From positions 21,529,501-21,593,500 of the forward strand of contig OX344749.2 of the NCBI GenBank assembly GCA_947034885.2: 64,000 nt of DNA. Reading direction: 5' to 3'. This DNA is from Thuidium tamariscinum (taxonomy: Eukaryota; Streptophyta; Bryopsida; Hypnales; Thuidiaceae). The notes under the pieces were generated by a model. It worked only from the letters and a program-made list of their open reading frames with translations, ran no database searches and was not told where the DNA came from. The position numbers were made by a program, and so were the translations under genes. Positions 2,126-53,483 of the stretch are shown piece by piece. Positions within the stretch are counted from its first letter, which is position 1, and the number at the start of each line of letters is the position of its first letter.

Positions 2126-4787
2126 CAGTATTGGCTCTGTATTTTTTTTTAGTCCTCCCTTAGTCATTTCGAAGTTACTCTCTCCCTGTACCATTGCAGG
2201 AGGCGCTCTGAAGTCATTTGGATGTGTGGTCGCTGTTGGCTAACTTGAAGGCTCGTGGGGCCTATTGGGCCTTTGTGTTGGACGTGTCTTTGGGTAGATG
2301 TCGGGCACAGGTGACTCGGCTCGGTGGGAAGCCATGGAGTCGTGGAAGAAGGATGTGGACTTCAAGTTCGGTCAATTTCTAGTGAATTCAACCGCACAGG
2401 GTGCGGCGATTGATGAAATAAGGTCAATGGTTTCGACCTTCATTGGCACCAAGAAAACTGCGGATGAAGGCAGTCCCTCCATCACGCACTCCGCATTGGA
2501 GAACCTTGACGCATGTGGGAGGACCACATCCAAAGCCGTTGGGGGGATGCCCAAGTCCAAGAAGAAATCCGCTTCGGTGGCAGCCACTGCGGGAAATGTA
2601 GTCGTGGCTGAAGATAGAAGAGGGCCCCCTACCTTACCTCGGAGGAAGAAGGGCCATGAGGTGACCGCAGCGCCTGCAGACATCACACTCTCGGATTCGG
2701 AGTCTGACCATTTCCGGCCCAAGCCGATTGTTGTGAACTCTGAATCAATGCCCCCACAGTGGAAGGTGGCTGAGCGGGTTCAGTCGTCCCCAATTAGGGA
2801 GGCGGAAGGGGTCTCCCAAGCGCAAGAAGACCTACAGCTGACCGATCGGGCGCAAGCAGATTCTGTGGTAGAGGTGGCAGACCCACGTCCACCCCTAGTG
2901 ATGGCACAGGCGGCCACACATACCTCCGATTCCCCGGCCTTGGAACCAGTGTTGGCAGACCCCCAAGCATGTGAAGCCATCTGTGGCAACCTAGAATTCA
3001 CCTAAGCAGGTTCTTAAGCAAAATACGGGAAGAGGGATCTATTCAATCCCCATTTTTTTTGTTGTTTTCTTAGTTTCTACACATAATTGGGACCAAGACC
3101 GGAAACCGGAAAACCCTAGACCGTAAACCAGAAACTGCGTTAAGGGACAGCGTATGAAATCCCGGATTCCGCCCACCTAGCGACCGAGACCGGATAGGTA
3201 ATGAGTGGCTACCGAGTCTAGAGATCGTCGGGATCTCTCCCACGTGACCAGACTGGTTTAAACCTAACGGTCAGTAATTAATGACGGGGGAAAAAGTATA
3301 AGACTAGGGAAGCAGGGCCAGGTCCTGCCACTTTCTTGCACGCAGTTCGAGAAAGGGTTTCCGGCCAGAGATAGAGTATTCGGTCTACAGACAGAGAGGA
3401 GGGATAGATAAACTGTCAATCCGGTCTGGTACATAGTTGAGCGGTTTTAGCACTACGCTAGCTGACAGGTTCTTGAGCGCGGGAGGTTTAGTTAAGTTGG
3501 ACCGCGCCTAGATCGTGTAGGCGTCAAGTGAGAGATGGCAGAAGAGGTGCAGGAAGGAAGGATTCTAGCCTTCCGGAATGTGAATCCGGTCGTGCCAACT
3601 GACGCACAAGACAAGAGGGAGCTGGAGGAAGACCTCAGGCAGATGGGCTGCGAGGGGTTCATGGCTCACCCTTGGAACCTGAAGGATGAGGCGATGGTGG
3701 AGGAGCTACTGGCCGGCCAGACCAACGAGTGGAAAGGGACGGTCCGGGCGCTGCCAAAGGAGTGGAGTGCAGCGATGTGGCGCAAGGTGTACGCCTTCGA
3801 GCAAGGAGGAGATGCGACGGGCACCCGGACGGACAAATTCCACCAAGGGAAGTTCCGCAGGCCCACCAACCCGAAGGACGGCTTTACAGTAGCAGAGTGT
3901 GTGTCTGCTAGACACAAGAGGCTACTGCGGTTCATGATGGCGATCTTGAACCCGAATAGACCTAGTAGGATTACGGTCACCGTGGCCAACACTGTCTTTG
4001 GTGCACTGTCGGGAGACAGGAAGATAGATTGGGGGTTAGTTATGAGGGACCGGATGGACCGAATGGTGAAAGGAATTGGGAAATCTAAACCCTCTCCCAT
4101 TTCACCATTCCTGTTTCATCTGTATCATTCGTTAGACCTCTTGAGAGAGAAGGAGATGGAAGCTTACGAGGTAGAGGCTGCATTGATAGAGTATGAGATT
4201 GCAGACCCGGAAGCTGAAAATGACCAGGATGAGGAGGACTCCGAGGATGAGAGTCAGGAGGGGCATCAAGGAGGCACACAGGAAGTAGAGGAGGTTCCAG
4301 AGGTAGGAAGAGAGGATCCACCTCTAGAAACCCCTGTAGTAGCCGAGGAAGCCTAGAGGTTAGATCCGGTCTGGGAACAGGATCCCTTGCTAAGGATCCT
4401 GCGAGACCTGGAAGATTTCAGAAAGCACCACCTAGAGGAGAGAGGGTTATTGCGGACCATAAGCCAAGCCTTAGGCTCTATTCCCCCCTCCAAGATCATG
4501 GAGGTGTTGGGAGAATTGATTCAGGAGGCTCATGATAGTCGGGACAGAGAGGAGGTACTCCGGCTAATAAATCAGGTCTCAGCCCTGAGGAGGGAACTCC
4601 ATCACACTCAGGAGGAGCTGGATGAAGAGAGATGCCTCACCACGCAGGCCCGGAACACACTCGGAGAAATCCGAGAGTTCATCACGCATCCGGGTGAAGT
4701 CGTCAACAAAGCCATGCTTTTCGACAGGAAGGTCTTGGAAGCAGGCAAGATGGTGGGTCCTCAGATGCTTACAGCTCTGGTGGCCTA

Positions 4788-7700
4788 TGTCGTAGCACAA
4801 GGAAGCACAAATCCGTCTGTAGGTGTTAATTTGGCGTTAACACCGTTCAAATGACTCGTGTATCGTTCCCACAGGATTTTACGTAGATTCCTCAAGATAT
4901 CCGGAATAACAGGATGCGGAAAACAACCCCAAGACAACAGTAACCGGATTCCTAACCGGAAACTTCCTCACAACATCCGCATTCCTTTAGATTGCCTTTC
5001 TCACCATTCATACATACTTTACCACTCTCACAACAACCTCCAAACAGGGGGGAGTGCCCAAACTCTGTACCTCTTCCGGATCCGGTTTCCGGATCCAATC
5101 ACTCAAGTAACAAATGAAGTTTAGCCTCTGTATTAGAGGGGTCCGCGGTTGGCATTTAGGAAGGATGCGTTGAATCCTACCCTCCTCAGGATTATAGTGA
5201 ATGGAGTTCCACTAAAAGAGGAAAATAACAAAAGACATAAAAGAAATAGGCTGCAAGTTCCTCCTCACAACTAATCCGGATTGCAATCCCAACTAGCAGG
5301 TCACTCAGGAAACCCCTACAAACCCCACATTACTACAATGACAGACTCACCCAAACTCAGTTCCTAAGGCTTAATCTAGGAGCCAGATAACTAGGGGATC
5401 CTAACTGTCTGCACATCCCTCACTTCCGGTTATAGTAGGACCTCAACAACACGTCAATTGGCATGCGCCCACTCTCCTAGCAGAACACACCCAATCTAAG
5501 AGCGGCTTTCCCACACAGAAGCCTCCAAGTGACTGCAGCAGCTAGACTTCAATCCTAATACACCAGTAGCCTCAACCAAATCACTTCAATTTCCCGGAAC
5601 CGGATTCAGACAAAGTCTGGGGGAGACACCTCATCCAAACACCTGCAAACCCAGCTACCTCGCACTATCCAATGGTTCTAGCATTGCACGGCATACCAAT
5701 CCAGAGTCGAGACTTGTTCAGACCAACTCTTAGAAAGTAGAAATCTGGAAATCAGATTGCAAATGAAAGGAAAAACAGAAGTAGGAACACCCGGGGCAAC
5801 CAACTAACAGCCACCCCTAAATACCAACCCAAGGGAACCCTAAAAGCCCCAAGGGAACAAAATCAGAGGACAAGAGAATGCCAGGTGGCATTCCTTATCC
5901 ACAAAAGTCACTTTCCTATCCACCCAACTGGACCCGAAAAAAGTGGATCTCAGATCCAAAAAATCCGGATCTGACTGACCAGGTGCATTCTAAGTGAAAA
6001 GCACCTTGCTAACTACTTCCTACCTACTGGAAAGGTAACTTTCCACCTTTTCCACTAAGTCTACTCCTCAAAATTCTCTACCTATTCTACTTTCTATTCC
6101 TAACTACTTCTTCATCCGCTTTTTGGGGGAATCCGCATGCTTGGCGGCTCCCTTGCGTGCTGGCTGTTTCCTACTGGTGGAAACCTTTGCCGACGCAGCT
6201 GCTTTGCCCTTGGAAGGCGTGGCAGCAATCTTACCCTTCCCCGCAGATTTCGGAGGCGTGATTTTCGCCGGGTCTGACGGTTCCGGTTCCGGTTCCGATC
6301 CTGATCCGGATTCCGAATCTGACTCCTCTTCTTCGTGCTCGCTCTGCTCTGGGGACTCATCTTGGTCTGACTCCAACTCAATGGGACTCTCCCTCGCCCG
6401 CTTCGCTGTAGCCTTCCTCTTCATTGTGCTAGGAACCTTGGGAGATTTCTCGGATACCTTGCTCGGAGGCGTCTCTTGATCCTGGTCTTCCGCTTGGACT
6501 TGCTTTCGGATTTGGGATCCGGGTGTTGCCCCTTCTCCCACATCAAGATCAAGTCGGGAAGCTGCCTTGGGCGCCTGTGGAGTCTTCTCTTCCACTGAAC
6601 CCTTGCCCTTGGATTTCCCAGAATCAAGTGGAGAACCCACTTTGAATTCAGGAACCGGGATTACACTTTCCTTACCCTGGCTGGACTCCTTCCCCGTTTC
6701 CGGATCCGGATACAGCCCAGCCCCTTGCAAAGCCTCCCTGATCTCAAACAGAGTTCTCTCCATCCTCTCACCAAACTCCACTAACACCTTCACCATCTTA
6801 GAAGCCACTGCCGGCCCTGCCTTATGCACTTCCTCATCAAATAATTTTGCCTTGTTAAGTACATCGCCCGGAATCTTAATAGAATCCCGGATCCGCTTGA
6901 GGATTGCTTGGGACTCACCCGACAGCCTCCTAGACTCTTCTGACTTCTTCTCCAACTGACATTGGAGATCCCTAACCTGAGTGGACAATTCCGCAATCCG
7001 GCTTTCCCACTTCCCAATATCCTGATTTTTGAGAAGTTCCTCTATTCTCTCACACAAAACAGAGGGACTGATGTTTCCCAGCAGTCTACATGCCTTCCGG
7101 ACTTCCTCTCTTTCCCCACTCTGATCCTTTCGGATCCTCTCCAAATCCGCAATAACAATTCCTAACGGATCCTCCTTCCTATCACTCGGCCAGACCGGAT
7201 CCTCTTTCACTTCCTCAACCTCTGGCTCCTTTCCCTTCCTTGAAATAGGAACCTTCTCTTGCTTTCTCTCCTTCTCTGAAGATCCTGGTCCTTTTGAACC
7301 TTCCTTTCCCTCTCTCTCTTCCTCACTTTCCGATTCCGGGGGAGGACTGATGTCAAACTTCAGCATCACTGAAGCGGACTTGTACATAGTGGCCTCTCTG
7401 TCCCTTAGCAAATCAAGAGAGTGATATAGATGGAAGAGAAAAGGACTGAGGATAGTGGGTTTAGACTTTCCGGCCAAGGTTACTAACTTTCCTACATGAT
7501 CCCGGATTACCATTCCCCAACTAACCTTTCGGTCCCCAGATAATGCCCCAAAGATCGTGTTGGCTATCGTGGTTGTAATCCGGGTTGGCCTTTCCGGATA
7601 CAGAATCGGAGTTAGGAATTCAAGCACTCTCCTATCCCTCTTGCTTGCACATTCCGCGACTGTATACCCGTCCTTAGGATGCGGTGGTTTGGAGAACTTA

Positions 7701-8708
7701 CCCTTCAAGAACTTGTCCGTCCTTGAGGCTCCTCCTTCTCCCTCCTTAGGAAACCCATACGCCTTCCTCCACAGCTCCGCTGTCCACCGGTTAGGAAGCG
7801 CCCTAACAGTCCGGTTCCACTCACTGGACTGATCCTCCATCACCTCCCGGACCATGTCTTCGTCTTTGAGGTTCCATGGGCGCTGCAGCAACCCTAGGCA
7901 GCCAATCTGGGTCAGGTCCTCCTCCAAATAAGCGCGCTCCTTGGCATCCTTGGGCACTCCCGGAGTTACGGACTTTAGGTTCACGAAAACCGGATCCTCT
8001 GCTTCCTTGGACTTCCCCATCTCTCACTCAGATAGGCGCTCAAGGTTCCAAGACGGATTATCTCACCACAAAACCCTCAAAACGCAACCAGCGCTCAAAG
8101 AACCACGAGGTGCTCACTCAAAACCCTCTTACTTCAAGTCGGCCGTGCGCCCTTCCGCGATACAGGAACCGGAAACTCTGTAGCCCTAAAAGACTCAAAC
8201 TCCCGCCCTTGCAACACAAAAGAGCTCTCAAAAACACACTCAAGAAACACCAAACTGAATCGTCACCAAATGAGAGTGACAACCCCTCCATCAGCCATGA
8301 CCCCTGGAATCCCAGAACTAGCCGTTTAACTGACAGTTCCGTGATTTCCGGATGTCCCACCGTTAGGGTTTCATCTAATTTCTCCCGGCGGCGCCGTCTT
8401 TGCCGGTTAGGGTTCCGTTGGCTCCTGGACAACTGGTGGTGGCTTTAGGATGACACCTGGACCCTTCCACGATCCTAGGGCTGAACCCCAGATCCTCAAT
8501 CCGGTTCCGGATTTTCCGGTTAGGTAAGGGTTTCTACTTCCCTTTCTTAACCTAATTATCCCAATTGGATGTCTCCAACTTCCACCTCTTCCTAATCTTA
8601 CTAACTTTCCCTATTCTTGACCAAAGAATCGAAAAATTTCTCTAAGATTAGCTTCCTTATTCCTAATTCTATACTAAATATTAAAAACCTGTATTCTAGG
8701 TTCCCACA
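4788..8708 (-). mobile_element. LTR-type unit C (solo-LTR-like), nested in unit D
   Basis: On the plus strand it starts TGTCGTAGCAC at 4788 and ends GGTTCCCACA at 8708. The 5-bp direct repeat GCCTA is present at 4783-4787 and 8709-8713. Its length is 3921 bp. Read on the minus strand, it starts TGTGGGAACCTAGAAT and ends GTGCTACGACA, closely matching the start and end of unit D, so C and D belong to one family. It carries a 638-aa reading frame on the minus strand that looks whole. It has no internal LTR pair and no pol. It is younger than D, because it lies inside D's coding region. Confidence 0.88.
6104..8020 (-). CDS. Gag-like/coiled-coil protein encoded within LTR unit C
   Basis: A 638-aa frame starts at an ATG about 690 bp from the unit's 5' end. 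Residues 1-200 hold the conserved family block (RTDKFLKGKF, KDGYTVAEC, RITTTIANTIFGALSGDRK, LFHLYHSLDLL). Residues about 225-290 are acidic/charged. Residues about 290-420 look coiled-coil (heptad-like leucines, SRIAELSTQVRDLQ). The C-terminal 170 residues are low-complexity Ser/Glu/Pro followed by Lys-rich sequence, probably disordered and possibly nucleic-acid binding. There is no zinc knuckle, protease or polymerase motif. The nearest resemblance I can name is the gag-like 'putative plant transposon protein' type. Function is unknown. It looks whole. Confidence 0.7.
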   Translation of the reverse strand: MGKSKEAEDPVFVNLKSVTPGVPKDAKERAYLEEDLTQIGCLGLLQRPWNLKDEDMVREVMEDQSSEWNRTVRALPNRWTAELWRKAYGFPKEGEGGASRTDKFLKGKFSKPPHPKDGYTVAECASKRDRRVLEFLTPILYPERPTRITTTIANTIFGALSGDRKVSWGMVIRDHVGKLVTLAGKSKPTILSPFLFHLYHSLDLLRDREATMYKSASVMLKFDISPPPESESEEEREGKEGSKGPGSSEKERKQEKVPISRKGKEPEVEEVKEDPVWPSDRKEDPLGIVIADLERIRKDQSGEREEVRKACRLLGNISPSVLCERIEELLKNQDIGKWESRIAELSTQVRDLQCQLEKKSEESRRLSGESQAILKRIRDSIKIPGDVLNKAKLFDEEVHKAGPAVASKMVKVLVEFGERMERTLFEIREALQGAGLYPDPETGKESSQGKESVIPVPEFKVGSPLDSGKSKGKGSVEEKTPQAPKAASRLDLDVGEGATPGSQIRKQVQAEDQDQETPPSKVSEKSPKVPSTMKRKATAKRARESPIELESDQDESPEQSEHEEEESDSESGSGSEPEPEPSDPAKITPPKSAGKGKIAATPSKGKAAASAKVSTSRKQPARKGAAKHADSPKKRMKK

Positions 8709-11700
8709 GCCTACAACAAGAAAATGGAGGCAGCGCTGGAGAAGTGGCGGTCAGTAGTCACGGAGGTCCAAGCTAGTTCTACTCCGGTCTCAGGACCGGA
8801 AGAGCCAAAGATGGAGAAGGAGCAACCGAAGGATCAGCCACCACCAGCAGCTGTCGAGGTAGAAGCCGGCATATCTGAACCGGCGAAGGAAGAGAGAACC
8901 AGGACCGACGCAGTGGAGGAGGAATCTGTCCCACCGGCCCGGATTGAAGAGCCCAGGGTTTCTCAACCCGAGAAGACCAAGGAGCCGGAACCCGAGCCGA
9001 TTGTGTTGAGGGAGATAATCCGGGGAACTACACCACCAAGGGAGAAGACCAAGTTCATCACCTTGTTGGATGATTCTCCAAGCAAGTCATCACCCACGGT
9101 CATCATACAACCAAAGACCGGAGGGGAAGCGAAGGCAACGGTGCAGGTCCGCTCTATACTGAAGACCGGATCTGGATCCGGGTCACCAAGCCAGGGACCA
9201 GCCCGGACTGCCGAGAGAGTGGGGGAGCAGACCCCGCAAAGCAAGATAGTGCACCACCCGCCCATCACCGGATTCAAGAAGAAGACCGCGGAGACATCCA
9301 AGGTGAAGCGGAAGGCCCGGGATGAAGAGGAAGAGGAGTCAGATGAGGAAGATGAGGACTCGGAGGAAGAGACCGACTCCGGTGATGAGTCGGAACAATA
9401 CTCAGATGCGGACCAGGCATTGGCAGAGACCACGAAGACCAGGGCCAGGGCGCGGGGTAAGACCAAACCGAAACCCAAGCCCATCAAGATGTACCGGTCT
9501 CCGAAGAAGCAGCCAGCCCGGAAAGGTGCGTCGCCTCTCAAGAAGGCGAGGAAATAGGGGGCATTAATTACAGGTAGATAGGAAGGCGGCTAAACCAAGT
9601 TATATTTAGGTTAGGAACTTTTGAACTTAGACCGGATCCAGATATGTAGGATCTGTGATCCTATTTTGTTGGTATTTTTGTAGTTTTGTGGAAGTCAACC
9701 TACCCAAGTTGTAGAGGAATGTGAGGTGGCATTCTTGGCGGCTGGTGTTGATTCCATTTGCACTTTTAGGTTTTCTTGCAGTTTAGTATTTAAACCCGGT
9801 TCGTAATTGAATCCGGGCGCGCATTATGTTATCTTACTTTCACAAGTTTTTGTGTTGCAAATACAAGTCAGAACCTTTCTGATTCACTCTGAAGTGGACT
9901 GTGTGCATGGGACCTTGTCAAAGTCTTATGGTGATGGTTAGGATTGCAACCTTGTGTGGATAAGTGTGTGCCCGGATGGTTAGTTTATCCGGTCTCTGGA
10001 CTTAAAGTGAATTCGGTTTTGATAGGGAATTTGTGCAGGATCCCACAGTGCTTTCTGAAACAGGTCTAGGGAGTATTTGATAGAGATAGACACTTGTAGA
10101 GTCTGGGTTTGAGATCGGGAGTGTCCGGCCAAATGCCAACTGAATGGTGATCCGGTCTCTGTAGAAGAAAGAAGGACTAAGTGAGGAAATTCAGCTCTCT
10201 TGCATAAGCTACCGCCCTTATTCTACCAGGGATTAGACTAACTGGTTCTTCCGTCGTTGTAGTCTTTGTTAGGATTAGGCAGGAGTGCTTGCGTGACCTG
10301 CTGGGTCGGATTAGTCCCGGTCCAGTTGTGAGGTATTCCGGTCTGTTTGTAGTAGTAGTTTCTTTTTACTCATAAGTGGAACTTCTGACACTTTAAAACT
10401 TGAAGGGTAGGAGTAAACTTCCTTCCTAAACGCCCAAACAAGCAGATCCCTCTTGTTATCGAGGTTAAACTTACACTTGGTTACTATACTAGGGATTGGA
10501 CCAGCTACTAGTATCCGGTCTTTAGTCCCATATCTAGTGAGCGTAAGCATCAAGGTAGGTGAACATACAGGTATAGATAGATAGACTTAGTTTGGAAGGA
10601 TAAAGGATTGATCTGGTAATCAAGTCCAAGGAAATCTTAGGAACGTTGGAGACCAAGACCGGATCAGTCTTTTGCTTGGGTTTTGTTGTGATAACCACTA
10701 ACGTATTCCGGTCTTTCGTCAACTTTCGACCAAATCTCTTGGGAACGATACACGAGTCACTTTAAGGCTAATTTAGTGCATTCTAAAGCCTTAGAGAAGG
10801 AATTGTGCTTTCCTGTGCTACGACACCATCGCCATGGTGGAAGAGAATGACGGAGGTGAAGACAGTGCGGGAGGAGAGTGGGATGCACCCACACCTGACA
10901 GCGGAGGCCCAGGACCCTCACCCTGCACTAGCGATGCCGTTGAGAATGTGGCAGGTGAGGAGGAAGGCGAGGTCGGCACGGTGGCAGTAGACTCGGCCAC
11001 TAGGCCCCCAGGTGCGGTGGAGGCGATGGAGCCAACGCTCATGGTTGTGTTGGAGGAAGCAGCCCCTACAGCAGCTTCGCCATCCGCAGCGGCTTCGCCA
11101 TCCCAGAAGAAGGCTAGGAAACCACCGAAGTCACCCATGAAGGTATTTCCTCCGCCCGGCGTTCGCCCATTAACGCCGACTGAGGTGAGACCTTCTGGTA
11201 CTTCATTGGTCCTGCCTGAATTATTCCCCTGTCGTGAGCCCAAATTAGTAATTTTCAATGTACATGGTACATTGCTAGATTGTAGTATGTTGTCCGAGGT
11301 CAATCCGAACCCACAAATCCGTAGCACCCTGAAGACTGGACAGAGGAGAGTAGTTTTCCGTCCATGGCTGAAGCCCTTCCTTGTCCGATGCTTTGAAAAT
11401 TTTAGTGTGGGCTTTTGGGGTAGTGGCAGTAAGTCACATATGGCTGATGTGCTACCAACCATTTTGCGTGATTTGAAAGGTATAAATGTAGCACCCTTGT
11501 TTGCATGGTCAGGTCAAGTTCTAGAAGGTGAGGATGTTTCAGATGGCTCCACAACAGAGTGGGGTAAACAACTGGAGGCAGTATATGCAAAATGGCCCCA
11601 TTTCTATGGAGGAAATACACTCATTGTAGATAGCAAACCAAATAGAGTGGAGTGCAACCCTGATGCTAATGTAATCATCAGTACTCCATTCTACGTGAAG

Positions 11701-15290: not shown

Positions 15291-15296
15291 TTCTAT

Positions 15297-16416: not shown

Positions 16417-16430
16417 ACCGTTGGATTAGG

Positions 16431-16627: not shown

Positions 16628-16805
16628 GGCGGTTTAGGCCGTCCGCCCTCACTCTTGTTTTCTCCCTTGCATTTTGCAAGTGTGGAGTGGAAAGCTTGGT
16701 GGCTTTTCAAGTCTCCATCGGTTCCCCTCCTAGGGAAAGCAAGGGGGACATTATTGGGGCCCCTTTGTTGCTTTTTTTCGAAGTTTTGACGTGATTTTTA
16801 TCATG

Positions 16806-22215: not shown

Positions 22216-22384
22216 AACTCTTTATTTGTAAGACTTAAAAGTCTGAGTTCATATTCGCAATCAAAATTTTCTCATTAGTCTATGAGGTTTAACCATCTCT
22301 CAAAAAATAATTTCCCATGGTTTTGTATTTTAGGCCTTCCATAGTCTAAATATAATATATATTTTGTATTTAAAAAAAAGGGTG

Positions 22385-26563: not shown

Positions 26564-27821
26564 CTCCCCATTACCAAGCCTCGTTAGTGTCGTACGCGCA
26601 GTCTAGCAGAAAGCACCTTTATCACACCCAAACGTGATAATATGACACGGAATATCGTCCCAGGAGATTCCAGACGTTACTAATAGTTGCGTTTTCCGGT
26701 TTCTAGGTTTCTCGGATCAAAACACCCCAAGTTACTACTCTTAATCCGGAATACCAACTTATCTTCCAGACTGTTTTTCAGGATCCGTCTTTTCTTTCCG
26801 AATCCGTCTCTCCACTATTACCGGATTCCTTTCTCGGATCCGGATTTCTCCTTCACCCGGATCCGTCCCAATCCGGAATCCGGTTCCGTCACTCAATAAT
26901 TGGTTTTTGATACCCCTGTTTTACCCTCAGGGAGTCCTCTCTTGATCTTTAGAGGGGTAGGGACTTACCACTCGTACACCTCACGCTCTCTTCTCTCAAA
27001 CAAAAATACATGAAAATACCAAAATATATCCGGTGTTGTATTAGGGCCGGATTCGGATCCTCACAACTTCCCGGATAGCTCTAGGCCAATCCGGTTAGCA
27101 GGTCACTCAGGACTAATTCACTTGCCCTTACTACAACGACAGATTCGAAAACCCCTAGACCCGAAAGGACGTATTTTCCTAGTTCTTCGGATCGACTCAG
27201 TGGTTGGCAGACCTTCTGATGGACAGAACTTTCCTATGGCGGCTGCTTAACTCCGCACGAATCCGCCCCTGCGGTTCCGGAACCTCCTCCTCGTCACTCC
27301 TGGACTCACACCGGATCACCGCTCCGGTGAATTAAAGGTTCCACGCTCAAACTCACGATTCAAGATCCTAACCCTCGGAAGTTGGTCACTCAGTTCGGAT
27401 TTCAAGTGCCTCAGAATCCGGATTCCTCCTCACCCTTCCCTCTTGCCTCTCAACACTTCAATGAACACACCAAGAAGAGACTCAAACGCAAGTCAGGGCT
27501 AGAATGTCCATCCGCCGGCTCAAATTAAAGAAGGGAATGAAAATACAGTAGAATATGCACTAGGAGGGAATGACAGGCCAACTCACTTGCCTGCCCCTTA
27601 AAAGCCAGAATAACAATGAAAGTCAAAGCCTAAAAACAGAAGCGGAATGCCAACAAGGCAAAAGAAAATCCGAAACAACTAATCGGAGCCCAACCGGATT
27701 ATCCGGAAAGGTTCGGTCAGTTGTCCCTAGAGTTCCGGATCGGGGCCCACATCCGGGAAATCCGTCCAGGAAACTTTCGTCCCAAAATCTCAAAAGCCTA
27801 CCTAACTACTCAAACCTTATC

Positions 27822-29858
27822 CTACTTACGCACCCGCTTCGATGTCGCGCCCACGGGCGGAACTGAACTTCTTCGCGTTGCTGCCTTGGGAGGGGGGGCC
27901 TTCTTGGTGGCGGATCGGGTCTGCCTCTTCTGAATCGGAACCGGTGGCGTTCCGCTGTCTTCCGTCGAAGTCTCCTCCGAATCCGCCTCGGAGCTTTCTG
28001 AATGCTCTACTCCCTGAAATCCGCCCTGCCCCCTAACTTCATCACGGATGGTGAGGGGCGGATTATCTTCCCTGTCCGAGTCATCCAAGATGACTGTCTT
28101 GCTGCGCGGATCCTTACCCGGAACCCTGTCTGGCTCGTTCATGTGGGCGAACTTCTCCGGATTCTCCCTGGCCGGATTCGCCAGGGCCTTCATCCGGATC
28201 TCCAGGTCGAGCCGTGGTGATGCCCTCTTCTCTTGCGGATCCGTAGGTGTGTTGGACGGTCCGGCCGCATTCGGATCCGATCCAAGCTCGCCGAGGTTCT
28301 TCACGACCGGCGAGTTTCCGAGTAGTTTTCGATCCGTCGACATCCGTCCTTGCGCACCGGGGCTGAAGTCCGTAAACACCGGCTGGTTGAGCAAGCTCGA
28401 CAGTCCTTCCCCCAACTCCGGATTGAGAGCCCCTATTAAGGCCCTCATCTCCTTCAGCACCCCTTCCATCTTGGCTTGATAATCCACCAAGATGGTGATG
28501 ACTTTCGATCCGGTGACGTGCCCTTCCGTCATCAGCCGGGCGGAAAACAGTTTCGCTTTGATCACCTTATCCGCCGGCTGGGCCACCAACTCTTGCAGGT
28601 TCCGGACCAAGGAGGTGGCCTCCACGATCTTCCCGTTGGCGACACTGAGATCACTCTCCAGGTACGTCACCGTGCTCTGGAGTCCATTCCGCTCCTCTTC
28701 CGCCTTCCGTCGTCCCTCTTCAGCTATCCGGGCCAGATCTTCCGCCTGTCGGATTTTATCCGTCTGATTCCGGGCCACGTCCTCCCACTTCCGGATCTCT
28801 TCGTCTTTCTTCTGCAACACCTCTTGAGTCGGAAGACGGTTGAGGATTTCCGGAATGTCTTCGATCTTCACCGCGCCCAGCTTCGTGACAATCTGTTCGA
28901 GTATCGCCTCATATTGGTTGTTGTCTGCGTGCGCCATCATGGCGTGACGGATGATGGTGTCGAAGTGGTTCCGCTTCTTCTTCCCCAGGGTTGATCCGGG
29001 TGGATCCGGGTCTGGGTGTCCTCTCTTATCCGGCGTTGTGGACTTCTTCCGTTCCGGCTTTCGTTCCGGCTGGCTGACCGGCTTCTGCTCTTCCGGGTCC
29101 TCGTCCATCGGCTCGTCTTCCGGGTCCTCCGGCTCCTTCTCCAACTCATCCGTCAAGCCATACTTGAGGATCTGAACTCCCATCTCATAGCGGAGGAGTT
29201 CCGGGCCACTCAGTACATCATGGTGGTGGTACAGGTGGAAGAGATAGCCGCTGATAGTGTTGGTCTTCTCCCGTCCCACATGCTCGGCTAGCCGGTTAAC
29301 TACCCACTGGAGGACTATACCCCAGTTGACTATCCGTTTCTCAAAACACCCGAAGATGGTGTTCGCTACCGTTACGGTGACACGGGTAGGCTTTTCCGGA
29401 TAGAGGATGGGAATCAAGAATTCCAACATCCGTCTATGCCGGTCGTTGGTGCAATCCGGAACTGAGTATCCGTCCTTAGGGTGGGGCGGATTCCGGAACT
29501 TGTTAACACCAAACTTGTCCGTCCGGGGAGCTAGACCTAATCCGGTTTTATCAAAACCGTATACATTCGCCCAGATATCCGGCGTCCAGGCACTCGGTCT
29601 ACCCCTCACTGTGAGTTCGTATTGATTCGGAACTCCCGAGAGGATTTCCTGTACTATCTCGTCACTCTTCACACTCCAAGGGCGCCGGATCAACCCATGA
29701 CACCCTAGGAAGACTAGATCATCTTCTAACTCCTTCCGATGCTGCGGATCGGAAGGGATGACTGGCGAAATTGCCTTGGCCGTCACTACCGCTCGCTTCG
29801 GATTGGAGGAACTCGCCATCTCTCCGCCCGAGTCGGAACTTGTCGGTGCGGTCGGCAC
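27822..29858 (-). CDS. Gag-like/coiled-coil protein encoded within LTR unit A
   Basis: A 678-aa frame that looks whole. A second in-frame ATG (MASSSNPKRAVV, residue 14) is a plausible alternative start. Residues about 35-240 form the conserved block (LGCHGLIRRPW, RTDKFGVNKFRNPPHPKDGYS, RVTVTVANTIFG, LFHLYHHHDVLS). Residues 240-300 are acidic/Pro-Glu-rich then basic. Residues about 320-480 are a long heptad-type coiled coil (QKKDEEIRKWEDVARNQTDK). The C-terminal 180 residues are disordered and end in a Lys/Arg-rich tail. It is homologous by eye to the frames of units B, C and D. It has no enzymatic motif; a structural, gag-like or DNA-binding role is a guess. Confidence 0.72.
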   Translation of the reverse strand: MPTAPTSSDSGGEMASSSNPKRAVVTAKAISPVIPSDPQHRKELEDDLVFLGCHGLIRRPWSVKSDEIVQEILSGVPNQYELTVRGRPSAWTPDIWANVYGFDKTGLGLAPRTDKFGVNKFRNPPHPKDGYSVPDCTNDRHRRMLEFLIPILYPEKPTRVTVTVANTIFGCFEKRIVNWGIVLQWVVNRLAEHVGREKTNTISGYLFHLYHHHDVLSGPELLRYEMGVQILKYGLTDELEKEPEDPEDEPMDEDPEEQKPVSQPERKPERKKSTTPDKRGHPDPDPPGSTLGKKKRNHFDTIIRHAMMAHADNNQYEAILEQIVTKLGAVKIEDIPEILNRLPTQEVLQKKDEEIRKWEDVARNQTDKIRQAEDLARIAEEGRRKAEEERNGLQSTVTYLESDLSVANGKIVEATSLVRNLQELVAQPADKVIKAKLFSARLMTEGHVTGSKVITILVDYQAKMEGVLKEMRALIGALNPELGEGLSSLLNQPVFTDFSPGAQGRMSTDRKLLGNSPVVKNLGELGSDPNAAGPSNTPTDPQEKRASPRLDLEIRMKALANPARENPEKFAHMNEPDRVPGKDPRSKTVILDDSDREDNPPLTIRDEVRGQGGFQGVEHSESSEADSEETSTEDSGTPPVPIQKRQTRSATKKAPPPKAATRRSSVPPVGATSKRVRK

Positions 29859-29996
29859 CGACCCTGAACTAAACCCGGAACCGATCTCTACTGCTCACCA
29901 CTCTTTCTCTCTCTATACGCGCTCCAAAACCTGCACACAAGCCGTACCTCGATTTGCCAAATCGAAAAGGAAAAAAATGAAGTGGAGAGGAAGGGT

Positions 29997-30004
29997 TTAT
30001 ATAC
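29997..30004 (-). promoter_or_regulatory. TATA box of LTR unit A
   Basis: Minus strand reads GGTATATAAACCC, about 140 bp upstream of the frame's ATG and about 410 bp inside the unit's 5' end. This is the expected place for the core promoter of an LTR (U3/R boundary nearby). Confidence 0.6.
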
Positions 30005-30439
30005 CAGTCGGTACCCTGCGTTCCCAGTTCCCCTCGGAACGGCGCGACGTTCCCCGGCCGTTACGCTAGTTTCCGTAGGTCGGCAGCATAGACCCGTAGG
30101 TGCCGACCATCCGTAACTACCTCGGATCCGTCTTTAGGTATACCGGATCCGTTCTTGACAGCATCGAATCCGTCTCTCCAAGTTCCGTCTTCCGGGAAGT
30201 TCCGTTCCGGATATTGAGGAATCCAGATCCGGAAACTTATGCCCATAGACCGGAAATTCACCTTGGTCAATCCGGTTCAAACGGATCCCAAGGGAAGAAG
30301 ACACTAATTATCTTCTTTTCGCCATATCTAACCCTAAAATTTTGAAAAATTGAGCTTACTCTATATACTATCTTCCTTTTTTACTTACCTGATATTTCCG
30401 GACTGCGACAGTTAGGAGTGTTAATTTGTGTCTAATCAC

Positions 30440-41570: not shown

Positions 41571-41784
41571 TGCTCCCACTGGTTCTTCACTTGAAACTGC
41601 ACAAACAAAACAAGTTAGTATTCTGTTTGGATGTGATGTGGAAATAACACTTACTGCTTTCACAACAAGTGTTCCTCCCACACACTCTTCTTGGACTTCA
41701 CTCTAGTGCAATGGCTGTATGCTAACCAGGTCATAAGAGCAGAGATCAACAAGGAAAAGTGACCTTCAAATACACGGCTTGTGC

Positions 41785-42779: not shown

Positions 42780-45700
42780 CTAATTGGCCTCGTCCTCTTC
42801 CAACTCCACCGTCAATTCTTCCCTTCCTTCCTGACTGAAGTCTTCGTCCCTGTCCATCAGTGGACCGCTCAACTCGACATTTGCCTCTTGATGCACTCGC
42901 GTTCTTCTGGACTCCATGTGCAAGACTATTGACCAATCAGGCTCGTCATCACAATTGTAGAAGAAAACTTGCGAGGCCTGAATGGGGAAAACAAAAGAAT
43001 TAGCAAATCTCCGCATGAGCCTCCCTAATTTCAACAGCGTGAATCCATATTCGTCTTTCTTCATGGAAGCGGTAGCTCCTCTAGAAATCGGCGCCACCCA
43101 ATCACAAAGAAGTAAAATCGGCTTGACACGCCCATAGTCTAGCTCCAAAATCTCCTTTATCATATCGTAATACGTTACAGGACCTGAGATTAAGTTCGGA
43201 TCAGAGACTCCACTTCTCTGTACTGTCTCGCAAGTGGCTATAATTCCTGAGTCTGCGGTCAACAAGTTTTCTTCAGCTCCAACCACGCAAAACTGTTTAC
43301 TATATGCCTTCATGCTCCTGTATGACTTCGCTCTTAACCTCGGAAGAATCAAGAGGTCCACGACGTCCTCTGGGAAGGGCTCATTTCTTGCTTCAACCAT
43401 TTCCTGCAACCACTCCGAAAACCCAGGAACTGGATTCAATTCCTCCGGGTAATTTAGACACCGTCGTTGTCGAGAATGAACTCCTAGTCTGTAAGCAGCT
43501 CTAGCATTCGTCACCTCCGTCGACCTCCACTTGTGAGTCCTGCATGCTCAATTCGAGAACGTTACATTCAGTACCCCCAATAGCACTCTAACTTCCAGTG
43601 CGAGCGGTTAAGTGACACTTTTAGCAACGGCCTCTTATCCTAAGACACCTGCTCTTCAATTCCGTTTCCAAAGAAAACTTGAAAACATACGGATACTACC
43701 AACAGAAACACAGTACATTGGATTAGAACTCACTCTCTCAAATTATCCAAGCAGTTGGAATTCTCCAGTACACACGCATGCGCCCACTGGCACTCCTCTT
43801 GCGAGAGTAGTCGATATTGATATGCTGCGCAAACAACCTCCCCACTGTCTCCGGGCTCTTCTTCAGCATCCCACACTCTCTTACGTGTTGAGTCGCATTC
43901 CAATATATATTCAGTAGACAAACCGAGCGCTACTTCCATCGCTGTTCCGGTGGCCATGCATCCCTCTGGCCGTGCCTTATTGCAAACGTATGATTTCATG
44001 TATTTCATATACCTCTCCAAAGGATACATCCAGTAGTTGTGAATTGGCCCACACAAGAACAACTCCTCAACTAAATGAATTGGGAGATGCGTCATGGGAT
44101 CAAAGAAAGAAGGGGGAAAGTCACATTCAAGCGAACATAAAGTGAAGGCAACATCTGCATTCATAGAAACCATCTGCGAGGGATCAATAGTCTTCAGACA
44201 AAGTCTCTTGAATATTTGACTCAACCTCAGTACGGTTCTCATGACTCTCTTCGGCAACAATCCACGAAGGCACACCGGAAGTAATTACTGTAGAAAGATG
44301 TGATAATCATGGCTCTTCAAGCCATGAACACTCCCATCCTCATTTATCCTTGACTTCAAATTGGACATATAACATGTTGGCATCTTGAAGTTCCGAAGTC
44401 TCCGTATCAGTTTCTTCTTGTCATCAACAGAAAGAATATATGGAGCAATCGGCATACGAAAACCAGTTAGAGGGGGTCTTTCACTTCGAATATGCAAAAA
44501 CCTTTTGCAACCAGCCTCCTTCATGTCATTCCGAACAGAGGGACCATCCTTCACACCAAGCAAAGTCATGAACAAGTTCTCCGCAATGTTTCGTTCACAG
44601 TGCATACCATCTAAAATATGCCTGATTAATAATTTCTGCAAAACACCGTGCAAACAGATTCACATTAATACTTCATTTGAACTAACAGCACACGGAACCC
44701 ACTACACAGTTCTCCGTTATCCACATTCCCTTAATTCCCCCCATCCACCAGACAAAAACTATACTACAACCACGTTCACAAGACTTCCCATATCGTAGTG
44801 GGTACTTCAAAACACTAACAGTGAGAACTTACTTCCCAATACGGTAGCCTGAAGAGCGCTATGACCCGCTTCACCCTGTTTTTTTTTATTGGGTCATTTT
44901 CACTGTTGGCACACCCACCCACCTGCAGCCATCTCTGACATGCTTCACCACGTCTCCTATGTTCATAACCTGTAACTCTTGATGGTCGACTTCGGTGTTC
45001 CTGTTTCCCATTGAATAAGTCACTCATGAACCTGAATGGATGCTCAGCTGCTAAATACCTACGATGTCCTTGGAAAATATTTTTCCTCAAACTACGTGAG
45101 AACCTGGACTCCACTTGAGGACCACAAACCGGACATCCTTTATATCCCTTAGTGACACAGCCAGAGATTAAACCGTATGCTGGGAAGTTGTGGATGGTCC
45201 ATAGCAGCATCCCGCGTAGAGTGAATGACGTAGGTTGAGAATCGTCTGACATGTCCATAGCCGGCACCCCATTCCAAAGAATAACTAACTCGTCTACTAG
45301 TGGTTCAAGATAAATGTCAATGTTGGCAGACTTCACGGATTCCTTCCTTGGAATTATGAGTGACAACATCACGAAGAATCTCTTTGTTACCAACCACCTA
45401 GGCAAGTTGTAATTCAAAAGAAAAACTGGCCACGTTGAATGCCTTGTAGACTTATCTGCAAATGGGTTCATCCCATCTAACGCCAAGCCAAGTTTAATGT
45501 TTCGGCCGTCTTCAAAGAATGCTTGATCAATATTCTTCACTTCTTTCCACGCTGGACTGTCAAGAACGGATCGCAGTTTGCCATCCGTAGACGCATTCTT
45601 CTCATGCCAGCGCATTAGAGAAGCTATATCACGACAGCGGTACATCCTCAAGAGTCTTGGTATTAACGGAAAATGTCGTAGCACCTTCATAGGAATGGAT

Positions 45701-48167
45701 GTGCTACCTTCTACATAGCGGGAGGTTCCACAGTGTGGACATTGTGTGAGATGTTCTCTGTCCTTCCAGAAAAGTATACAACCGTTTCGACAAGCATGAA
45801 TTGTAGAGAATGACAAACCCAGACGATCAATTAGTCTATGCGCTTCATGACGGGTCCGTGGTAAACCATTGGTTTGCGGGAGGACATCCAGTCGAAGGAA
45901 GGAGAATAACTCATCCATAAAAGAATTCGAGACGTTGTGCAAATGCGCCAGATTCATGAGCACAAGTACGCAGGCCAAGGCAGATACTTTTGAACCTTGA
46001 AATAGGGGTACCTGACTTTTGTGGAGCCAGTCATCCATGTTGGGGCAGGATGTGTCTTCAATGGGGTCGCTGGAATTTTCGTCACGTTCTTCGTCAGCTC
46101 CCACTTCTGCATGAGAAGCTTCCCTTCTGTCATCAACCTGCCGAAACCACTCCGATGTCATTCTGCGGAAGTCGAATCCATGGTCCAGTCCTTTAGTCTC
46201 TGGCTCGTCCATAGTAGGTTTGCCCGAAGCTCCGCCATCCTGTTCATCACCGACGAACCTCTCTCCATCGTCACCATCTTCTAGCTAATCATAGAGTCAT
46301 CAAAGTCTATCAGGACATATGCCTTTGTAAATTGGACGTCACATGACGTTCAGGAGAGAGTGCGACACATTCACATCTTTACAGTACAAGACACAAACTG
46401 AATTAAGGTCTCACATTCCCGTCGTGTACATCATGCAGTCGGACATGCTAAGCGGACGTACACCTGTCCACAGACAGCTTCATTCCGAAACGTCAGTTAG
46501 AATTGAACATGAAGAAATGATTTGTAATTGCACATGTTCACTCCTTGAGTATATTGAGAAGCTTTACTCTATTAAAGTGCCCTGCCTTGAAGAAGTTGGA
46601 TCACGTCCAAGCATCACGAACTGAATACGATTCAATAATCTAGGATTGCATTCCGAGCCACGACTGTACGAACAAATCAAGAAATAAGGTCAGAGACAAA
46701 TTTCCCACTACTAGTAGCGGAAGACTATCTTCCTGTACTGTTCGAGAGTAAGAGCATGTTCAATCAGATGATGGTCAAGTAAAGGAAGTTGTCATACGGA
46801 AAGATATCCACGAATTGGGAAAAACAAGTTCCACCGACGCTTCCATAAAAGTAAGCCCATTCCTGGTTCCTAACAACGGTCACAGACATTGGAACGATAG
46901 TTAACAAGCTTTATATCAGCTTATTTCAAGTACAACATCCCAGAGTGGTGCACAACTGATTAATGGTACTTAGGTATTCCTCACTGATGTTTCACTTCAC
47001 ATCACTTCCGCGAAGAATACCGTGAAAAGCATTCAAAATCGAATGTCACGTTGCATTCACTGATGCAACCGCTCCTAAAGATGCTTCATGTACATTACTC
47101 AGCCGATCTACTGAAATGACTTAGTAATGTCAAACCAGAACCCCTAAAACAATCTACTTCCGACCTCCTTCTTCTCATAAGTCGGTTATTTTGCACTTGG
47201 GCAGGTGGGAGTGGACAGGGAATTCAGTCCTTCGAACCAATGCGTCCGGTCACCCCTCCGTAGGGAATTGTATATCACTCTCATGTCCGGGTACACGTAA
47301 AATGATAAGGCACTTTGGCCAATGTAAGAGAGTTTGAAGAAATCCAGCTTTCCCAAATGTAGAGGAATATTTTCAGTATTGTAACAATGCGATTGCAAAA
47401 CGAAGCCATGTCGTCCACGGAAATTCTAACGAAGAGGTCAGTTGTGTCCTTAACCATAGAGGTTATGATATGAATGCAGTATCATTGACCATCCGCAGGG
47501 TGGACAATACCGTCGATTAGCACTAATGCAATCGAAGAGCGCTCTGTCACTTAAGCAGACGCTAAGTACTACACTTCGCGTTCTGCTAGAATGAGTGCAG
47601 TGAATCTTGACGGACAGCAGCAGGCAGTTCATTACGAATTACTGGAAGAAATTCTAGAGAGGTTACTGGACTTCCGTAGGCGCCCTGCTGAAGGTCATTT
47701 TTAGGGTTCACTGCAGTGACGGAAGCGCCTAAGAAGCAATTGAACCCTAGTCGGGCACTACAGCAGTGTTGATGGAGAGCGTATGCATTAGTCAGCGCTA
47801 GTTTCTTATGTCAATCTCCTCTCAGAATGAGGAAGGCGTGTCTAGAGTTACGTACCTCATTCAAAATTTAGGAAACAAAAGAAAACGAACTCTACTTCTC
47901 TGATTTAGGATAGAGGTGCAAGGAACAATGACAAAATTCACTTACCAACATGGAATGAGTTAAATTCGGATCTCGTCCATTCCGACGCAAATGATTCTCG
48001 ATAGTTGCCCGCAGTACAGCTCGCCCTCCGCCCTTGCATAAATTGCAGAGGCACTTGTAGCTCCCCAGCATTCTCTCATTGGCGCGTGAACGCTCTAGTG
48101 CATTGAGTGTGTTCGCCAAATTGGAGAAGCGCGCATCGTCGGTAGCATTGGCGGCGTCCATGTTCAT
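42780..48167 (-). pseudogene. tnp2: TNP2-type CACTA transposase
   Basis: Exons read on the minus strand: about 48167-47946 (N-terminal zinc-binding part, YKCLCNLCKGG ... IENHLRRNGRD, ending at GTAAGT), about 46284-44833 (TNP2 core: CRNGCILFWKD, CPHCGTSRY, FPLIPRLLRMYR, LGLALDGMNPFAD, TLRGMLLWTIHNFPAYGLISG, CPVCG), 44635-43734 (LLIRHILDGMHCERNIAENL; HDYHIFLQ; FPPSFFDPMTHLPIHLVEEL; WMYPLERYMKYMK) and 43539-42780 (DUF4216-like: YYDMIKEILELDY, LLLCDW, YGFTLLKL, QVFFYNCDDE). The N-terminal start is inferred at 48167 or 48161. The large intron of about 1.6 kb may hide another exon, since phases do not match. One in-frame TAA (44285-44287) falls where the family has Gln (LLQQLLP), so the gene is probably dead. 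It would encode the catalytic CACTA transposase. Confidence 0.85.
46300..47940 (-). other. Large intron / unresolved part of the TNP2 gene
   Basis: No recognisable TNP2 sequence or independent gene. It lies between the N-terminal exon and the TNP2 core exon. The phase mismatch of those exons suggests a small undetected exon here or an indel. Confidence 0.4.
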
Positions 48168-49308: not shown

Positions 49309-49657
49309 TACGTCTTCCTCTACTCTATGTATGCTTCTACGTCTACGTTTGGGTATTCATTATTTTCCTTCTCTTTATGGTTGTCTCCCTATTCGTGATT
49401 GCTAAACACCGGACCCTAATCCTACTTGGGATGTGGACTTTTCTACTAACTAATTTCCTACTGCATCAATTAATTCAAATCAAGGGTAGGGTTAGATGCC
49501 CGCCTCCGTTCCGTGGATCCGGTCCTCTTTACTTCACGCCACGTCCATCACTGCCATATCTTGGTCTCGGCTCTTTTTATTATCCCCTTCCGGGTGCTCT
49601 TACAATTAGGTCTTTTTTGCAATGGCTTCCTAGCCCAACTAGTTTCTATTCTATCCC

Positions 49658-52600
49658 TGTCGCAGTCCGGAAATATCAGGTAAGTAAAAAAAAAAAGATA
49701 GTATATAGAGTAAGCTCAATTTTTCAAAATTTTAGGGTTAGATATGGCGAAAAGAAGATAATTAGGGTCTTCTTCCCTTGGGATCCGTTTGAACCGGATT
49801 GACCAAGGTGAATTTCCGGTCTATGGGCATAAGTTTCCGTATCCGGATTCCTCAATATCCGGAACGGAACTTCCCGGAAGACGGAACTTGGAGAGACGGA
49901 TCCGATATTGTCAAAGACGGATCCGATGTTGTCAAGAACGGATCCGGTATACCTAAAGATGGATCCGAGGTAGTTACGGATGGTCGGCACCTACGGGTCT
50001 ATGCCGCCGACCTACGGAAACTAGCGTAACAGTCGGGGAACGTCGCGCCGTTCCGAGGGGAACTGGGAACGCAGGGTACCGACTGGTATATTAACCCTTC
50101 CTCTCCACTTCATTTTTTCCTTTTCGATTTGGCAAATCGAGGTACGGCTTGTGTGCAGGTTTTGGAGCGCGTATAGAGAGAGAAAGAGTGGTGAGCAGTA
50201 GAGATCAATTCCGGGTTTAGTTCAGGGTCGGTGCCGACCGCACCGACAAGTTCCGACTCGGGCGGAGAGATGGCGAGTTCCTCCAATCCGAAGCGAGCGG
50301 TAGTGACGGCCAAGGCAATTTCGCCAGTCATCCCTTCCGATCCGCAGCATCGGAAGGAGTTAGAAGATGATCTAGTCTTCCTAGGGTGTCATGGGTTGAT
50401 CCGGCGCCCTTGGAGTGTGAAGAGTGACGAGATAGTACAGGAAATCCTCTCGGGAGTTCCGAATCAATACGAACTCACAGTGAGGGGTAGACCGAGTGCC
50501 TGGACGCCGGATATCTGGGCGAATGTATACGGTTTTGATAAAACCGGATTAGGTCTAGCTCCCCGGACGGACAAGTTTGGTGTTAACAAGTTCCGGAATC
50601 CGCCCCACCCTAAGGACGGATACTCAGTTCCGGATTGCACCAACGACCGGCATAGACGGATGTTGGAATTCTTGATTCCCATCCTCTATCCGGAAAAGCC
50701 TACCCGTGTCACCGTAACGGTAGCGAACACCATCTTCGGGTGTTTTGAGAAACGGATAGTCAACTGGGGTATAGTCCTCCAGTGGGTAGTTAACCGGCTA
50801 GCCGAGCATGTGGGACGGGAGAAGACCAACACTATCAGCGGCTATCTCTTCCACCTGTACCACCACCATGATGTACTGAGTGGCCCGGAACTCCTCCGCT
50901 ATGAGATGGGAGTTCAGATCCTCAAGTATGGCTTGACGGATGAGTTGGAGAAGGAGCCGGAGGACCCGGAAGACGAGCCGATGGACGAGGACCCGGAAGA
51001 GCAGAAGCCGGTCAGCCAGCCGGAACGAAAGCCGGAACGGAAGAAGTCCACAACGCCGGATAAGAGAGGACACCCAGACCCGGATCCACCCGGATCAACC
51101 CTGGGGAAGAAGAAGCGGAACCACTTCGACACCATCATCCGTCACGCCATGATGGCGCACGCAGACAACAACCAATATGAGGCGATACTCGAACAGATTG
51201 TCACGAAGCTGGGCGCGGTGAAGATCGAAGACATTCCGGAAATCCTCAACCGTCTTCCGACTCAAGAGGTGTTGCAGAAGAAAGACGAAGAGATCCGGAA
51301 GTGGGAGGACGTGGCCCGGAATCAGACGGATAAAATCCGACAGGCGGAAGATCTGGCCCGGATAGCTGAAGAGGGACGACGGAAGGCGGAAGAGGAGCGG
51401 AATGGACTCCAGAGCACGGTGACGTACCTGGAGAGTGATCTCAGTGTCGCCAACGGGAAGATCGTGGAGGCCACCTCCTTGGTCCGGAACCTGCAAGAGT
51501 TGGTGGCCTAGCCGGCGGATACGGTGATCAAAGCGAAACTGTTTTCCGCCCGGCTGATGACGGAAGGGCACGTCACCGGATCGAAAGTCATCACCATCTT
51601 GGTGGATTATCAGGCCAAGATGGAAGGGGTGCTGAAAGAGATGAGGGCCTTAATAGGGGCTCTCAATCCGGAGTTGGGGGAAGGACTGTCGAGCTTGCTC
51701 AACCAGCCGGTGTTTACGGACTTCAGCCCCGGTGCGCAAGGACGGATGTCGACGGATCGAAAACTACTCGGAAACTCGCCGGTCGTGAAGAACCTCGGCG
51801 AGCTTGGATCGGATCCGAATGCGGCCGGACCGTCCAACACACCTACGGATCCGCAAGAGAAGAGGGCATCACCACGGCTCGACCTGGAGATCCGGATGAA
51901 GGCCCTGGCGAATCCGGCCAGGGAGAATCCGGAGAAGTTCGCCCACATGAACGAGCCAGACAGGGTTCCGGGTAAGGATCCGCGCAGCAAGACAGTCATC
52001 TTGGATGACTCGGACAGGGAAGATAATCCGCCCCTCACCATCCGTGATGAAGTTAGGGGGCAGGGCGGATTTCAGGGAGTAGAGCATTCAGAAAGCTCCG
52101 AGGCGAATTCGGAGGAGACTTCGACGGAAGACAGCGGAACGCCACCGGTTCCGATTTAGAAGAGGCAGACCCGATCCGCCACCAAGAAGGCCCCCCCTCC
52201 CAAGGCAGCAACGCGAAGAAGTTCAGTTCCGCCCGTGGGCGCGACATCGAAGCGAGCGCGTAAGTAGGATAAGGTTTGAGTAGTTAGGTAGGCTTTTGAG
52301 ATTTTGGGACGGAAGTTTCCTGGACGGATTTCCCGGATGTGGGCCCCGATCCGGAACTTTAGGGACAACTGACCGAACCTTTCCGGATAATTCGGTTGGG
52401 CTCCGATTGGTTGTTTCGGATTTTCTTTTGCCTTGTTGGCATTCCGTTTCTGTTTTTAGGCTTTGACTTTCATTGTTATTTTGGCTTTTAAGGGGCAGGC
52501 AAGTTAGTTGGCCTGTCATTCCCTCCTAGTGCATATTCTACTGTATTTTCATTCCCTTCTTTAATTTGAGCCGGCGGATGGACATTCTAGCTCTGACTTG

Positions 52601-53483
52601 TGTTTGAATCTTTTTCTTGGTGTGTTTGTTGGAGTGTTGAGAGGCAAGAGGGACGGGTGAGGAGGAATCCGGATACTTAGGCAACTAAGGTCTGAACTGA
52701 GTGACCAGTTTCTTAGAACTTGGGTTTAGAGTTGTGCGTTTGTGCGTGGAGCCTTTAATTTGCTGGAACGGTGATCCGGTGTGAGCGTGGAGGAGGTTCC
52801 GGAACCACGGGGGTGGATCCGTGCGGAGCTAAGCAGCCGCCAAGAGGAAAGTTTCCGTCCACCGGAAGGTCTGCCAACCACTAAGTCGATCTGCTGATCT
52901 AGGAAAGTACGTCCTTTTGGGCTTAGATGTCTTTGGATCTGTCGTTGTAGTAAGGGTAAGTGAAAGTAGTCCTGAGTGACCTGCTAACCGGATTGGCCTA
53001 GAGCTATCCGGGAAGTTGTGAGGATCCGGATCTGCCTCTACTGCAAAAACGGATATATTTGTGTGTCTTTGTGTGTTTCGTTTGAGAGAAGAGAGTGCGA
53101 GGTTTATGAGTGGTGAGTCCCTACCCCTCTAAAGATCAAGAGAGGACCCCCTGAGGGTAAAACAGGGGTATCTAAAACCGATTATTGAGTGACGGAATCG
53201 GAATCCGGATTAAGACGGATCTGGGAAAAGGTATAATCCGGATCCGGATAGAGGTGACGGATCCAAAGCGGATCCGGAAAGAGTGGAGAGACGGATCCGG
53301 ATTGAATTCCGGACACAAGGTTCCGGAAGAGAGTAGTAACTTGGGGTGTTTTGATCCGATAAACCTAGAAACCGGAAAACGCAACTATTAGTAACGTCTG
53401 GAATCTCCTGGGACGATATTCCGTGTCATATTATCACGTTTTGGTGTGATAAAGGTGCTTTCTGCTAGACTGCGCGTACGACA
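49658..53483 (+). mobile_element. LTR-type unit B (solo-LTR-like), nested in unit F
   Basis: 3826 bp, starting TGTCGCAGTCCGG and ending TGCGCGTACGACA, with the 5-bp duplication ATCCC at 49653-49657 and 53484-53488. It is nearly identical to unit A but in the opposite orientation. Visible differences include a short tandem expansion of a GGATCCGA-type motif upstream of the TATA region and scattered base changes. Its gag-like frame (about 50231-52265) is broken with about two breaks. It is younger than F, and A and B descend from a recently active common source. Confidence 0.9.
50231..52265 (+). pseudogene. Gag-like/coiled-coil frame of LTR unit B (fossil)
   Basis: It covers the same span as the 678-aa frame of unit A, with the same domain order: conserved N-terminal block, acidic linker, long coiled coil, basic disordered tail. 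Amino-acid identity to A is almost complete over the readable parts. It is broken, with about two breaks, and therefore not expected to give the full protein. Confidence 0.75.

Follow-up and report, generated by a model that had tools for sequence, protein, structure and literature searches.

Four TG...CA-bounded units with a long reading frame in Thuidium tamariscinum: candidate solo LTRs carrying a gene of their own

LTRs are treated as regulatory DNA that normally encodes no protein, and solo LTRs are usually dismissed as dead relics. Exceptions occur among retroviruses: sag of mouse mammary tumour virus and lentiviral nef lie wholly or partly inside the LTR, in U3. The four units described here, A to D, come from a 64,000-nt stretch of Thuidium tamariscinum DNA, the whole of which was analysed and is called the window. 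They would resemble sag and nef in placing a gene in an LTR; however, those genes belong to U3, whereas the frame of A, B and D stands downstream of a TATA-like box, and there is no relation of protein or host.

Several described elements share single features with the units. Retrosat2 and FRetro3, plant Ty3/Gypsy elements with LTRs of >3 kb, possess an extra large ORF0 near the 5′ LTR whose function is not known, according to the available text of PMC3485330. They match the units in LTR length class and in having an extra large frame, but their ORF0 is described as upstream of gag-pol, which we take to mean internal, while the frame found here lies inside the TG...CA unit. Additional ORFs are also known as the 5′aORF of Tekay and the 3′aORF of Athila, the latter with Transposase_32 (available parts of PMC11728184 and PMC7264820). 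They likewise specify an extra protein, which in Tekay shows helical coils, extended disorder and nuclear signals; however, in these sources such aORFs are located 5′ or 3′ of gag-pol and not in the LTR, and the units' frames have no Transposase_32 Pfam match. No ORF within an LTR was found in the accessible portion of a review of additional frames (PMC7264820). Cassandra LTRs carry 5S rDNA-related sequence, as stated in the available text of PMC10853983, and are thus comparable to the units as LTRs bearing gene-derived sequence, except that in Cassandra it is an RNA gene used as promoter and here a protein frame. Ginger1 and Ginger2/TDD share TGTNR ends and 4-5 bp duplications with the units, but in the accessible passages (PMC2836005, PMC10045372) they have long inverted ends as well as a transposase resembling integrase, and neither was found in the units.

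A literature search, with most subscription papers outside its reach, gave no plant LTR with its own protein gene among the matches listed. The available text of PMC1560396 concerns a gene inside an element and not an LTR gene. If the units are LTRs, they vary a known theme: long LTRs and extra frames are known in plants, and a protein frame in a plant LTR was not found among the papers listed.

Unit boundaries, insertion sites and decay

The original prediction described four units of 3823, 3826, 3921 and about 3918 nt, each starting with TG, ending with CA and flanked by a perfect 5-bp duplication; all of this was confirmed in all four (Table 1). The length of D, exactly 3918 nt, is that obtained after removing C, which lies within it, and one copy of C's duplication. 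The pattern TGTNR, given in the available text of PMC2836005 as terminal for Gypsy LTRs and Ginger transposons, fits eight of eight unit ends, each being TGTCG or TGTGG.

Table 1. Window coordinates of the four units and of the features belonging to them
Feature	Coordinates	Strand	Description
Unit A	26588..30410	(-)	3823 nt, TGTCG...CGACA; duplication GTTAG at 26583-26587 and 30411-30415
Unit B	49658..53483	(+)	3826 nt; duplication ATCCC at 49653-49657 and 53484-53488
Unit C	4788..8708	(-)	3921 nt, within D; duplication GCCTA at 4783-4787 and 8709-8713
Unit D	2982..10825	(+)	split by C; duplication CCATC at 2977-2981 and 10826-10830
Unit A frame	27822..29819	(-)	665 aa, intact
Unit B frame	50270..52267	(+)	665 codons; two TAG stops where A has CAG
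Unit C frame	6104..8020	(-)	638 aa, intact
Unit D frame, first part	3535..4787	(+)	interrupted once by TAG, at 4354-4356
Unit D frame, second part	8714..9557	(+)	continues the frame of the first part across C's empty site
518-codon frame cut by D	2298-2981 and 10831-11703	(+)	second part: NIF-type phosphatase domain, E 6.9e-8
TATA-like box, unit A	29996..30003	(-)	unit position 408; 184 nt ahead of start codon
Hairpin block A	27059..27106	(-)	GTGACCTGCT ... AGTTGTGAGG; 519 nt from 3′ end
Hairpin block B	52976..53023	(+)	508 nt from unit 3′ end
Hairpin block C	5263..5304	(-)	517 nt from unit 3′ end
Hairpin block D	10293..10333	(+)	533 nt from unit 3′ end

The bare pattern of a 5-mer, TG...CA and the 5-mer again is frequent at distances of 3.7-4.0 kb: 106 such pairs exist within the window, among them a chance pair for CCATC at 2982-6792. 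A 5-bp flank match at the unit spacings occurs at 313 of 236546 positions (0.0013), versus four of four units. Homology between A and B breaks at the claimed unit ends, within one base, and C and D have both termini in common. Because of these homology breaks, the termini of C and D, the flank-match rate and the frames restored at empty sites, the four units are real and not a chance pattern, which answers the concern that the TG/CA ends and 5-bp repeats might be accidental.

When D is set aside, its flanks join as one frame of 518 codons; when C is set aside, the two parts of D's own frame join in frame. These two empty sites are independent proofs of insertion for two of the four units. The empty site of A spans no frame longer than 80 codons and hence proves nothing, and that of B, spanning one frame of 122 codons, proves nothing either. 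A 27-bp tandem array (53485-53621) begins directly at the right edge of B, placing this unit at or in the array.

As originally proposed, the units contain no internal direct LTRs: self-comparison (E 0.01, 7-base words) detected no terminal direct repeats in any of the four. Its only hits were both internal: two direct copies of 27 nt in D and an inverted match of 50 nt in B. No LTR pair occurs in the window, and all four units are single. As for pol, which the original prediction likewise found missing, no pol domain turned up among the 46 ORFs scanned out of the 103 of at least 100 aa in the window. The best inverted match between the 60-nt unit ends covers 7-14 columns, and internal control pairs scored equally high in 175/500 (A), 155/500 (B), 38/500 (C) and 41/500 (D) cases. 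Past base five, terminal inversion does not clearly exceed that of these controls, and long inverted terminal repeats of the Ginger type (~40-270 bp) are absent from all four units.

A and B are 94.6% identical overall, in a mosaic manner: counted by A position, there are 0 mismatches at 601-1800, 151 at 2901-3700 and 1 in the last 123. Copies of the A/B family have recombined or were converted; the mosaic fits recombination between co-packaged copies, and gene conversion explains it equally well. Transitions make up 24 of the 29 differences in the first 2900 nt, which, together with the TAG stops (for CAG in B; also in D), suggests decay of methylated, silenced repeats.

The reading frame and its protein

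A single long collinear frame is present at the same place in all four units and is broken in two of them, B and D. With C set aside, the D frame has 698 codons and one internal TAG. The claim of one large frame per unit stands, while the range of 638-678 aa given for whole frames does not, the whole ones having 638 (C) and 665 (A) residues.

Over the first 260 codons, protein identity is 41% for A/C, 38% for A/D and 48% for C/D, and third codon positions differ by 65-75% among A, C and D. Identity is lower beyond codon 260, at 21-35%, and the codon positions contrast less there. In six of six comparisons, change was greatest at third and smallest at second positions; these position-wise differences, computed on a protein-guided alignment, are the sole basis on which we rely for selection. 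An exact dN/dS is unobtainable because synonymous sites are saturated: NG86 gave a usable synonymous value in one of six comparisons (0.20, A/C behind codon 260), YN00 gave none in six, and maximum-likelihood ratios of 0.03-0.05 rest on dS >12. The test of synonymous versus nonsynonymous change suggested at the outset thus yielded saturated third and least-changed second positions in place of a ratio. The start context GAGAGATGG is common to the units' frames; two further occurrences elsewhere in the window count against the evidence for reading the units as solo LTRs. The codon-position pattern, the protein identity and this common start context together show a frame kept for long as a protein in three lineages, i.e., an old, protein-conserved gene.

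The encoded protein consists of a conserved N-domain with invariant acidic residues, stretches rich in heptads (on a rough count made for A and C), charged low-complexity stretches and a basic C-terminal end (KRVRK in A, KRMKK in C, KKARK in D). Pfam gave no match for the frames of A, C and D. The motifs may resemble those of Athila-type Transposase_32 (PF20167); in the three N-domain members scanned, Pfam gave neither PF20167 nor any other family up to E 10, and HMMER filters may drop weak matches. Comparison with PDB sequences produced nothing below E 8, the two matches having E 8 and 9.8. No relative was found in IMG/VR (searched with the N-domain alignment and the C protein) or among GTDB species genomes, collections of viruses and prokaryotes that have little bearing on eukaryotes; the 3′-end DNA pattern of the units had no match in IMG/VR either.

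Two AlphaFold2 models, built from 3-sequence alignments, reached a mean pLDDT of 47.8 and 57.8. At this low confidence they contain helices and no strands of at least three residues, and fold searches with the better, still low-confidence model returned nothing at E 0.001 and are uninformative. A CCHC zinc knuckle is absent from the A and C proteins, although some Gags lack zinc knuckles. Of the gag-like character proposed earlier, neither the zinc knuckle (A, C) nor a Pfam match nor a PDB match below E 8 could be recovered, and the models are too uncertain to settle it.

Signals outside the frame

Three units have a TATA-like box 5′ of the frame, which reads TATATAAA in A, TATATTAA in B and TATAAG in D. 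That of B occupies the place matching A's, and that of D lies 238 nt ahead of the start codon. In the leader of C no TATA[AT] was found, so the TATA box originally assigned to every unit is confirmed for three and not for C. Each unit has ~1.2-1.3 kb of noncoding sequence 3′ of the frame, and no clear AATAAA or other polyadenylation signal was found behind the frame in the units.

Within this 3′ part, the 10-mers GTGACCTGCT and AGTTGTGAGG are common to A, C and D and, within the window, confined to the four units; when 1000 trios were drawn at random from the rest of the window, a single one had any collinear common 10-mer. The spacer between them varies in A, C and D yet folds, the stem being closed by the same GCT/AGT with different bases paired. 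Shuffled spacers folded equally well in 43/5000 (A), 7/5000 (C) and 106/5000 (D) cases, a combined Fisher p of ~4e-5 that is post hoc, and when the whole 57-nt piece is shuffled the hairpin z is only -1.6, -2.0 and -1.1. A coding reading of this conserved block was rejected, as all three forward frames of each unit contain stops. Rfam returned nothing for the units and a tRNA scan nothing in the window. In retroviral LTRs, conservation of a long R region has been linked to stem-loops (available text of PMC3601003), and a similar role for the unit hairpin would be a guess by analogy.

Origin of the units and other features of the window

We consider the units to be, probably, solo LTRs of related Ty3/Gypsy-type families, in which a giant LTR (~3.9 kb) carries an accessory or Gag-like gene. 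The TG...CA termini, the perfect duplications of 5 bp and the absence of long inverted repeats argue for integrase-type (LTR-type) insertion, and the ends and duplications, with no terminal direct repeats and no clear inversion, have the look of a single LTR. Of the alternatives left by the original prediction, solo LTRs or a non-autonomous unit mobilized by another element's integrase, both parts that they share, insertion of this type and a real gene, are supported; the choice between them is one that we infer. Under the solo-LTR reading, a full element would comprise LTR, primer site, gag-pol and LTR, with the gene present in both LTRs, and LTR-LTR recombination would have removed the interior, leaving lone units from which the protein may still be expressed. 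With the TATA box upstream of it, the gene would come first in the element RNA, at its 5′ end in R or R-U5 and before gag. The protein is likely nuclear and might bind RNA or chromatin, in an accessory or Gag-like role that helps element copies; such a nuclear binding function is a guess from composition.

Several observations weigh against solo LTRs. No paired unit, primer site or gag-pol was seen in the window; the protein lacks any recognised domain, the frame is broken in two of the four units, no TATA box was found in the leader of C and there is no clear polyadenylation signal. The lower identity and weaker position contrast behind codon 260 are a further point. That all four units are single in the window is equally predicted if the unit stands alone and is mobilized by another element's integrase. 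In that case each unit would be a complete non-autonomous element that never had two LTRs and is equipped with its own accessory or gag-like gene. The integrase moving it, in DNA or cDNA form, would come from a Gypsy-type element or a Ginger-like transposon. The missing LTR pair, the full length of the gene in each unit and ends fitting the TGTNR that such an integrase would recognise agree with it; however, it needs a copying route for a single unit, none being described in the parts of the literature examined, and the units are without Ginger's long inverted ends (~40-270 bp in the available text of PMC2836005). We regard it as rather unlikely. A retroelement consisting of the LTR only, with its own gene and cis signals, never an LTR pair, and borrowed reverse transcriptase and integrase, would be a whole mobile element of a kind without counterpart in the literature examined; we hold this to be quite unlikely.

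It is very unlikely that the units are DNA transposons whose sole protein, the frame of 638-698 codons, is an unrecognised transposase. One gene per unit, the 5-bp duplication, TGT at the start of both ends and the invariant acidic residues of the N-domain would suit a transposon, but the inverted ends extend over only ~5 bp, Pfam reveals no transposase domain, and the models, at their low confidence, are helical without strands of at least three residues, unlike an RNase H fold. The features of Ginger-type elements are likewise missing, with no inverted repeats of ~40-270 bp and no integrase or transposase Pfam match in the frames of A, C and D. Decayed large retrotransposon derivatives, in which the unit would be an internal region whose short LTRs were lost or overlooked, are highly improbable: units of 3.8-3.9 kb with gene-sized content would fit, but the TG/CA ends and duplications sit at the outer edges of homology, and the absence of a terminal direct repeat in all four (E 0.01, 7-base words) refutes this origin, as far as terminal LTR pairs are concerned, at that sensitivity. 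The two terminal direct repeats by which TR-GAG elements and large retrotransposon derivatives are recognised were not found. The probability that an ordinary dispersed gene family shows such ends and repeats at its edges by coincidence is practically negligible; against the 106 bare-pattern pairs stand the A/B homology breaks, the frames restored at two empty sites and the per-unit chance of 0.0013, by which this explanation is refuted.

Should the solo-LTR reading be true, an LTR with a large conserved gene would give each element two gene copies, and every solo LTR could keep making element protein, to the benefit or the detriment of its living relatives. In annotation pipelines such units would then be mistaken for host gene families, and expression of a gene placed before gag in the RNA would become a testable question.

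The window contains further elements and genes. A hAT transposase is encoded at 39249-41702 (-), with DUF659 and hAT dimerisation domains, and a CACTA-type transposase region extends over 42780-46284 (-), with Transposase_21, DUF4216 and DUF4218. The C-terminal part of a 774-aa frame at 24178-26502 (-) holds a RING finger, whose zf-RING_2 match (E 5.4e-6) falls slightly short of the Pfam cut-off. Kinases usually have HRD and DFG motifs; two kinase-like open frames, 16734-18305 (+) and 35347-36915 (+), which are 28% identical over 466 columns, have NDI and CDWGM at the HRD and DFG places. The frame at 35347-36915 matches Pkinase with E 8.7e-7, below the Pfam cut-off, and that at 16734-18305 has no match at E 1. 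Among the repeats, a diverged array with a period of ~133 bp and strong GC skew (22370-23636) recurs as a shorter inverted stretch ~10 kb off (32772-33158), and a 176-bp tandem array (15285-16419), in which each copy is most similar to the next but one, has a higher-order period of 352 bp.
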